From Wohlfahrtiimonas populi (lineage in GTDB: Bacteria; Pseudomonadota; Gammaproteobacteria; Cardiobacteriales; Wohlfahrtiimonadaceae), in contig NZ_MVDN01000003.1 of assembly GCF_002006795.1 (NCBI RefSeq), forward strand, positions 232,654 to 274,792: a stretch of DNA of 42,139 nt, read 5' to 3'. This document shows, piece by piece, positions 2,552 to 4,114 of this stretch (the stretch's first letter is position 1; each line of letters begins with the position of its first letter). Under the pieces are notes generated by a model. That model searched no databases and was not told where the DNA came from. It was given only the letters and a program-made list of their open reading frames with translations. Position numbers and translations under genes: made by a program.

Positions 2552-4114
2552 TTATTTAGTATCTATGCAAGCAATATTCTCTCGCAATATCTGATAAACC
2601 TTATCCATATCCACATATTGTCTAATATGATCCGCTAAGCGATCATACTGTGCATTTTTATAATCCATATCATTGGCTAGCATTTGTGCGGATGTTTGTG
2701 ATGCACTCAACGAATCTTCTGCCACAATTTCAATATCTTGATAATACGGAATAACCCCCAAAACAGGCACTTTGCATAAATCTTCAATCATCTTCACACC
2801 TGATTCAAAGAACTTCATATCACCACGGAACTTATTAATGATAATGCCTTTAATGTAAGGTCGCTCTTCTTCTGGCAACAACATGATCGAACCATATAAA
2901 CTTGCAAAAATTCCACCTCGTTCGATATCCGCTATCAAAACAATATTCGCTTTGGCATAAATTCCCATTGCGATATTGACCATATCTCGTTCTTTCAGAT
3001 TCAATTCAGAAATACTGCCTGCACCTTCCAAAACCATTGGCGAATATTGCTCCGCTAAGCGATCATAAGCGTGATGCGCTTCATCCCGCAAATGTAACCA
3101 ACCATCACCACGAAAATATTCATACGCATTTTTAACACCCAATGATTGACCCAAAAGTAATACATTGCTTTGATGATCCGCTGTGGGTTTTAACATAATA
3201 GGATTCATATCAACTGTTGGTTCGACTCCTGCTGCTTCCGCCTGTGTCGATTGAGCAATTGCCATTTCAGCACCATCATCTAACGTGACACTGAAATTTG
3301 ACATATTTTGCGCTTTAAAAGGCGCAGGCTGATAGCCATCTTGCTTAAAAATACGACAAAAACCTGTTGTAATCACGCTTTTACCAACATCACTGCCTGT
3401 GCCTACAAACATAATCGGTGCTAATTTTTTCATATCATCCTTTTTGCTCATCAAATATGGCAAGGCTTCCTGTAAATCTTCCATTAAATATTGCACGTCA
3501 TTTTTACAAAGTGGCCGATAACCAAATGCAACACCCATCATATCAATATTTGCTAATTTTGCGGCTTCTCGATCATCTAAGGAATCACCAATCATGACAG
3601 CGTCTTTAGCTTCAATCTTCAGTGCTTGTAATGCTTTTAATAATAGATCAGGCGCAGGCTTATGTGCGCCATCTTGCCCTGCCATGATGACATCAAAATA
3701 TTCATGGATGCCCAAAGATTTCAATAATGCATAGGTTAATTCATTTTTCTTATTCGTAATTAAAGCAATCGCAATATCATTTTGCTTCAATGCTTTTAAA
3801 AGTGTTAATGCACCTTTAGATAAAATAGTGTGTTCACAAATATGTGCTAAATAATAAGCTTCATATGTATCTGCCAAAGCCTGAATTAAATCATCTGTTA
3901 TGCGATTAGGCTCATTGACCAAGCTTTCTTGCAATGTACGCTTAGACAATAGCCAAACACCATCACCAATGTAATTCTGAACATTGCGATCATCAATGGC
4001 AGGTAAATCTAAGCTTTGTAATCCTTGCTGAATCGCAGCAATGCGATCAGGCAATGTATTCACCAACGTACCATCTAAATCGATCAATACTGCTTTAACG
4101 TTACAATCTTTCAT
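2552..4114 (-). CDS. HAD phosphatase fused to a CobQ-like ATPase without the glutaminase domain
   Basis: Residues 1 to about 222 form a phosphoglycolate phosphatase-like HAD hydrolase: DLDGT (12-16), T120 in LITNKK, K152, and GDSLDD (176-181). Residues from about 228 resemble the N-terminal synthetase domain of cobyric acid synthase CobQ/CbiP: P-loop GTGSDVGKS (238-246), KAQNMSNFS, QAEAAGVEPTVDMNPIMLKP, and EGAGSISELNLKERDMVN (363-380). Authentic CobQ is about 490 residues and carries a C-terminal glutamine amidotransferase domain. Here only about 65 residues follow the GVIPYYQ block, and they end in a YDRLADHIRQYVDMDKVYQIL-like tail that, from memory, resembles the extreme CobQ C-terminus. 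The glutaminase domain appears to be absent. No other cobalamin gene is visible nearby, though a B12-binding-type radical SAM protein lies at 38.4 kb. Both domains are clear; the joint function is unknown. Confidence 0.78.
   Translation of the reverse strand: MKDCNVKAVLIDLDGTLVNTLPDRIAAIQQGLQSLDLPAIDDRNVQNYIGDGVWLLSKRTLQESLVNEPNRITDDLIQALADTYEAYYLAHICEHTILSKGALTLLKALKQNDIAIALITNKKNELTYALLKSLGIHEYFDVIMAGQDGAHKPAPDLLLKALQALKIEAKDAVMIGDSLDDREAAKLANIDMMGVAFGYRPLCKNDVQYLMEDLQEALPYLMSKKDDMKKLAPIMFVGTGSDVGKSVITTGFCRIFKQDGYQPAPFKAQNMSNFSVTLDDGAEMAIAQSTQAEAAGVEPTVDMNPIMLKPTADHQSNVLLLGQSLGVKNAYEYFRGDGWLHLRDEAHHAYDRLAEQYSPMVLEGAGSISELNLKERDMVNIAMGIYAKANIVLIADIERGGIFASLYGSIMLLPEEERPYIKGIIINKFRGDMKFFESGVKMIEDLCKVPVLGVIPYYQDIEIVAEDSLSASQTSAQMLANDMDYKNAQYDRLADHIRQYVDMDKVYQILRENIACIDTK
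3431..3445 (-). promoter_or_regulatory. Internal ribosome-binding site before the CobQ-like domain
   Basis: Inside the fusion gene the minus strand reads AAAAAGGATGATATG. This is a good Shine-Dalgarno core (AAGGA) four bases before the ATG of codon 228, exactly where a stand-alone CobQ would start (MKKLAPIMFVGTG). It is either a relic of two formerly separate genes or a working site that yields a separate CobQ-like protein. Confidence 0.5.

Follow-up and report, generated by a model that had tools for sequence, protein, structure and literature searches.

A CobQ-like synthetase without its glutaminase domain, joined in frame to a HAD phosphatase in Wohlfahrtiimonas populi, and its counterparts in ammonia-oxidising archaea

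Domain content of a fused frame

An open reading frame of Wohlfahrtiimonas populi that joins a HAD phosphatase to a CobQ-like synthetase devoid of its glutaminase raises two questions: is the fusion an architecture in its own right, and from where would such a synthetase draw its nitrogen? The host is a fly-associated bacterium. The following features were delineated at this locus in the window, by which we mean the whole stretch of 42,139 nucleotides analysed.

2552..4114, minus strand: fused open reading frame of 520 codons, HAD plus glutaminase-less CobQ (frame reading, family models)
3434..4114, minus strand: Gph-like HAD phosphatase part, codons 1-227, with four HAD motifs; a separate gene of 226 aa in W. 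larvae
3435..3446, minus strand: one-base difference, AAAGAAGG in W. larvae against AAAAAGG in the window (junction sequences, separate frames in W. larvae)
3438..3443, minus strand: Shine-Dalgarno-like AAAGGA of the CobQ gene, directly before codon 228; in the same place in W. larvae (GAAGGATGATATG)
2552..3433, minus strand: coding sequence of the glutaminase-less CobQ, 293 aa when read from its own ATG (fused residues 228-520)
3377..3403, minus strand: P-loop GTGSDVGKS, CobQ residues 11-19 (motif read)
3014..3028, minus strand: EGAGS motif, CobQ residues 136-140 (motif read)
2666..2710, minus strand: junction, residues ~242-256, where ~200 residues of GATase_3 are missing relative to full-length CobQ (alignment)
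2576..2665, minus strand: retained extreme C-terminal CobQ tail, residues 257-286, DYKNAQYDRLADHIRQYVDMDKVYQIL... (alignments, model helices)

Profile searches and motif reading confirmed that the glutaminase-less CobQ-like frame, fused to a HAD domain, is real at 2552-4114. The HAD_2 profile matches residues 1-225 with an e-value of 1.6e-34, PGP models match too, and the motifs DLDGT, TNK, HKPAPD and GDSLDD, corresponding to HAD motifs I-IV, are all read in frame. The best model is PRK13222; the domain resembles Gph in being a complete HAD domain, but its score against the phosphoglycolate phosphatase equivalog, 169.2 bits, lies below the curated cut-off of 225. The rest of the chain matches CbiA/AAA_26, and the NCBIfam cobyric acid synthase model NF001989 scores 347 bits against a cut-off of 273, covering only profile positions 2-244 of 480. 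The DIERGG motif of CobQ is found beside GTGSDVGKS and EGAGS, and the family profile search detected no GATase_3 domain in the chain. The sequence-only reading had proposed just this content, namely a complete Gph-like HAD domain and a CobQ synthetase domain in one frame, with the glutaminase missing, and these parts of it are borne out.

Like BioD, the CobQ half is a P-loop synthetase of one domain, and the two have a common fold. It reaches only 24.2 bits against the BioD cut-off of 83.3, and a real BioD is encoded elsewhere in the genome; BioD or another one-domain family is thereby ruled out, so that neither of the two findings named in the sequence-only reading as fatal to it, a better fit to such a family or a GATase_3 in the chain, was made. 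No PDB chain is related to it by sequence. An AlphaFold2 model built from three sequences (pLDDT 75, pTM 0.83) found its best structural matches among dethiobiotin synthetases, such as 1dae (model residues 4-279, Z 18.7, rmsd 2.9, 211 aligned), and the synthetase domain of CTP synthetase; given that the DTBS-type fold occurs in CTP synthetase as well, the fold match is not diagnostic.

The fusion as a one-base difference between adjacent genes

In W. larvae kbl006 (G004; loci L031 and L032), the only close relative, the same region holds two genes: a HAD protein of 226 aa ends in TGA, one base follows, and the ATG of CobQ comes next. The junction reads AACAAAGAAGGATGATATG in W. larvae and AGCAAAAAGGATGATATG in the window, where the old HAD stop TGA is still present at 3435-3437 and the HAD frame passes beyond it into that of CobQ. 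Being one base shorter ahead of the CobQ start, the window sequence lets the HAD frame run through the TGA and join the CobQ frame. The fusion is seen in the window assembly only, and the separate adjacent genes of W. larvae rule it out as a conserved architecture. To judge from the junction sequences, it is an incidental one-base change between neighbouring genes, either in the organism or in the assembly. It would be a recent event in a two-gene operon, in which CobQ could still be started separately. Since the start region is preserved, and two genes stand there in W. larvae, the "internal ribosome site" previously placed before codon 228 is simply where translation of the second gene normally begins; the AAAGGA is there and usable. 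Accordingly, the weight that the sequence-only reading had given to the fusion and to this site does not hold. A functional bifunctional enzyme in the window species, for which the continuous frame and the intactness of both halves could be cited, is very unlikely in view of the two genes in the relative, the sufficiency of one base to explain the difference, and the unchanged ribosome site of CobQ.

In both species the HAD gene immediately precedes CobQ, and CobC is encoded separately. Further upstream, the neighbourhood of pirin, TrmO, LigA and ZipA is common to both, and the downstream side differs. Scans for promoters and terminators near the gene gave no more signals than shuffled sequences, and no cobalamin riboswitch was found near these genes at Rfam gathering cut-offs. 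Two adjacent frames at 360-2500 on the minus strand of the window both match a fused MFS/spermidine synthase family and overlap at TAATG; they may be two coupled genes or one gene that has been split. Elsewhere in the window genome, on contig C12, frame pairs at L053:11393-12972 and L054:6913-7982 repeat an N-terminal stretch across N, marking scaffold joins with duplicated ends.

Internal loss of the glutaminase domain

The CobQ part spans about 285 residues in both Wohlfahrtiimonas species. In alignments with full-length CobQ, the short form extends through the synthetase domain, jumps GATase_3 and re-enters the alignment in the last 30 residues. Local alignment places the tail at 462-491 of 492 in the Phocaeicola protein and at 472-502 of 506 in Salmonella CbiP, with 0 of 2000 shuffles scoring as well, which upholds the earlier suspicion that the CobQ C-terminus had been kept. 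As this tail corresponds to the extreme C-terminus beyond GATase_3, the domain was lost by internal excision and not by truncation. The model contains confident helices at 256-273 and 276-285, and the best structural matches have aligned ranges of 4-279 to 2-285 that include them. Hence, on the model, the tail appears to complete the synthetase fold, and the last two helices would have been kept for that reason.

A six-frame search of the window genome G000 (2.78 Mb, 99.5% complete) gave no match to PF07685, nor was one obtained in the W. larvae genome. The window protein shares with CobQ/CbiP (EC 6.3.5.10) the synthetase domain, the P-loop and EGAG motifs, the C-terminal tail and the company of CobD and CbiB. 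It differs from them in having no GATase_3 and in substitutions at the L and N positions of the invariant motif NM(A/S)LNS and at the R of GRAQ; since the defining glutaminase with its catalytic Cys and His is absent, the protein falls outside the glutamine-hydrolysing enzyme by definition. Of 63 residues that are nearly invariant in full-length CobQ, 56 are kept, and the conserved residues L46, N47, R59 and Q90 are among those changed. Three of these, L46, N47 and Q90, are changed in both the Wohlfahrtiimonas and the archaeal short forms described below (chance 0.015), and their positions may perhaps serve the glutaminase side.

Ancestry and selection

The synthetase domain is 57-61% identical to Bacteroidota CobQ, 50% to Salmonella CbiP and 38-43% to the two other gammaproteobacterial CobQ proteins compared. 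In the tree, the Wohlfahrtiimonas pair falls inside Bacteroidota (support 100/99), adjoining Phocaeicola (97/75), on a long branch of 1.03; the proteins closest to it are Bacteroidota CobQ of full length. No relative was found among viral contigs. The simplest reading of these relationships is horizontal transfer, apparently followed by the loss of the domain. Between the window species and W. larvae, omega is 0.055 for CobQ, 0.031 for LigA and 0.061 for pirin, and 0.157 for HAD and 0.20 for the CobQ tail. CobQ has evolved under strong constraint from the divergence of the two species onwards, and the loss of the glutaminase domain is real, not decay, and older than the fusion.

The cobalamin pathway in Wohlfahrtiimonas

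CbiB is encoded in two of six Wohlfahrtiimonas genomes, and these are the only two with the glutaminase-less CobQ. The CbiB gene adjoins one for a CobD-like decarboxylase; in the plasmid records searched, the closest relative of this decarboxylase is again from Phocaeicola. CobU, CobT, CobS and CobC were found in the window genome. Neither CbiC nor CbiZ was found in the two CobQ-bearing genomes, ruling out de novo corrin synthesis and CbiZ remodelling, respectively; CbiA is likewise absent, there being no PF07685 match in either genome. Certain bacteria are predicted to salvage cobyrinate diamide (PMC8123684). The Wohlfahrtiimonas enzyme would feed CobD, CbiB, CobU, CobT, CobS and CobC, and these bacteria could thus make adenosylcobalamin either from cobyrinic acid a,c-diamide that they import or from corrinoids deprived of some of their amides.

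Parallel loss in ammonia-oxidising archaea

A CobQ of 278 aa without GATase was also found in a metagenome-assembled genome of Thaumarchaeota (L033), in an operon of the order cobD-cobQ-cbiB-cobS-cobY; no PF07685 domain lies beside cobQ in the operon read. A four-gene late cobalamin cluster of Thaumarchaeota has been noted, and these archaea are implicated in the global B12 supply (PMC4303638); the thaumarchaeal cobalamin-gene paper uses TIGR00313 as a marker and nowhere mentions glutamine. We surveyed 300 genomes of the Thaumarchaeota class for CobQ and archaeal AmoA, 225 of which had a scored CobQ. Among the 189 with amoA, 187 encode a short form of ~280 aa and 2 a long one, as against 17 short and 19 long among the 36 without amoA (Fisher 8e-16, a value to be read with the caution that some of the latter genomes are probably incomplete and that related genomes are not independent draws). 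Three long frames (G542, G530 and G648) were counted as short, since on reading them only an upstream extension of the frame was found and CobQ itself is short; of the sequences counted as long, six were assigned from the length of the frame alone. The Cys and His motifs are kept in all 13 long sequences from amoA-negative genomes that were examined.

The two full-length proteins of amoA-bearing genomes are of a different kind. That of G534 (G534:C9:195587-196312; L162/L166) reads GIDEG in place of the usual GICGG and has no YxHG, and that of G509 (G509:C36:2705-3424; L165) keeps the Cys, in GICEG, with a His motif that reads FLYG; their glutaminase domains are apparent intermediates of domain loss. 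The short archaeal CobQ proteins form one group in the tree (99/90), with G534 and G509 as sisters and a full-length sequence from an amoA-negative genome next. They resemble the Wohlfahrtiimonas protein in size (~280 aa), in the retained tail, in their company of late B12 genes and in the loss of the L-N pair, but differ in their independent origin and in that these archaea also encode ring synthesis and CbiA. As the two groups lie far apart on the tree, at least two losses of the domain must have occurred. One such archaeon (G397) has kept the glutaminase domain in a full-length CbiA and also shows a PdxT-like class I glutaminase, so that an ammonia-based life leaves a need for some glutaminases. 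In two further amoA-bearing genomes the short CobQ is in two pieces (G510:C1:1142283-1143111, with an inner TAA, and G505:C3:41759-42579), reflecting either disruption or assembly error.

Source of the nitrogen and competing explanations

We consider it probable that the window CobQ is an adenosylcobyric acid synthase of Bacteroidota origin that has undergone an internal deletion of its glutaminase, is driven by free ammonia and finishes imported corrinoid precursors; its activity, its use of ammonia and the source of its substrate are what we infer from the above. The short CobQ very probably performs the same amidation as the full-length one. Its synthetase part would bind ATP and the corrinoid and phosphorylate the b, d, e and g carboxylates in turn, and free ammonia or ammonium, in place of glutamine, would supply the nitrogen by attacking the acyl phosphate. 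Such an attack is the most economical account of an intact synthetase apparatus that is strongly constrained and has no GATase_3 partner, and free ammonia, listed as one option in the sequence-only reading, was rightly included. The independent loss in archaea suggests, too, that free ammonia can suffice for the late B12 step. As general background, full-length CobQ may itself accept ammonia when its concentration is high, a point given no weight here. Counting against the free-ammonia reading are the published descriptions of the full-length enzyme as dependent on glutamine (PMC7242693; PMC8123684) and the glutaminase domain that G397 has kept in its CbiA.

Two further options had been proposed from the sequence, a partner glutaminase and a different substrate, and neither fares well. 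MurT/GatD, a CobQ-like amidotransferase that carries its ligase and its glutaminase on two different polypeptides (PMC5871853, PMC3266927), offers the precedent for a subunit acting in trans, and another class I glutaminase, of which the PdxT-like protein of G397 is an example, could serve the window CobQ in this manner. MurT itself is Mur-ligase-like. No GATase_3 subunit is encoded in either Wohlfahrtiimonas genome or beside cobQ in the archaeal operon read, and each of two lineages would need to have recruited a glutaminase, which makes a subunit in trans unlikely. A substrate other than adenosylcobyrinic acid a,c-diamide, to be amidated or ATP-activated, for instance in the re-amidation of corrinoids that lose amides, would suit a cell in which the classical substrate is not made, CbiC and CbiA not being found, and the long branch together with the changes at L46, N47, R59 and Q90 allows for such a shift. 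Against it speak the 56 of 63 conserved residues kept, the co-occurrence of CbiB and CobD, both of which need cobyric acid, and the predicted salvage of cobyrinate diamide (PMC8123684), so that we regard it, too, as improbable. Finally, the gene could be a drifting remnant that lost its glutaminase as the B12 pathway degraded, with the fusion as further decay or assembly error. The long branch would fit this, as would a fusion confined to one assembly with N-joined scaffolds and repeated ends; the low omega values of both CobQ and HAD, the intact motifs and the same architecture across a whole archaeal lineage disfavour it strongly, leaving it little credence.

Returning to the ammonia-driven synthetase, a wider generalisation seems to us evenly poised: glutaminase-free CobQ would be a recurrent type with at least two origins, each by internal removal of the glutaminase with the C-terminal helices kept, ammonia-oxidising archaea, which have been proposed as major producers of B12 in the ocean, would complete cobalamin with free ammonia, and the loss would follow an ammonia-rich life, with a pseudo-glutaminase stage in some amoA-bearing lineages. 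A CobQ that has shed its glutaminase twice independently, once in archaea tied to the global B12 supply (PMC4303638), would mean that ammonium can directly serve a late step of B12 synthesis. A full-text literature search returned no description of a CobQ without glutaminase, which is weak evidence of absence as the search covered literature outside the subscription journals, and nothing on Wohlfahrtiimonas and cobalamin. The short protein offers a compact synthetase for biochemistry and structure, and the archaea provide natural intermediates of domain loss. Caution is called for with pipelines that score CobQ as complete on its N-terminal half alone.

Other CobQ candidates

Matches from Spirosoma and an E. 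eligens plasmid that span nearly the whole query turned out to be full-length CobQ. A CobQ of 304 aa in the gammaproteobacterial genome G306 was rejected as a third case, its GATase lying next door in another frame; at this locus (G306:C7:1670427-1671831; L089) a change of frame, accompanied by a short duplication nearby, separates CobQ from its GATase. Two other gammaproteobacterial genomes carry two CobQ-like genes side by side (G137:C1:1030614-1032924 and G351:C33:107036-109344; L093).
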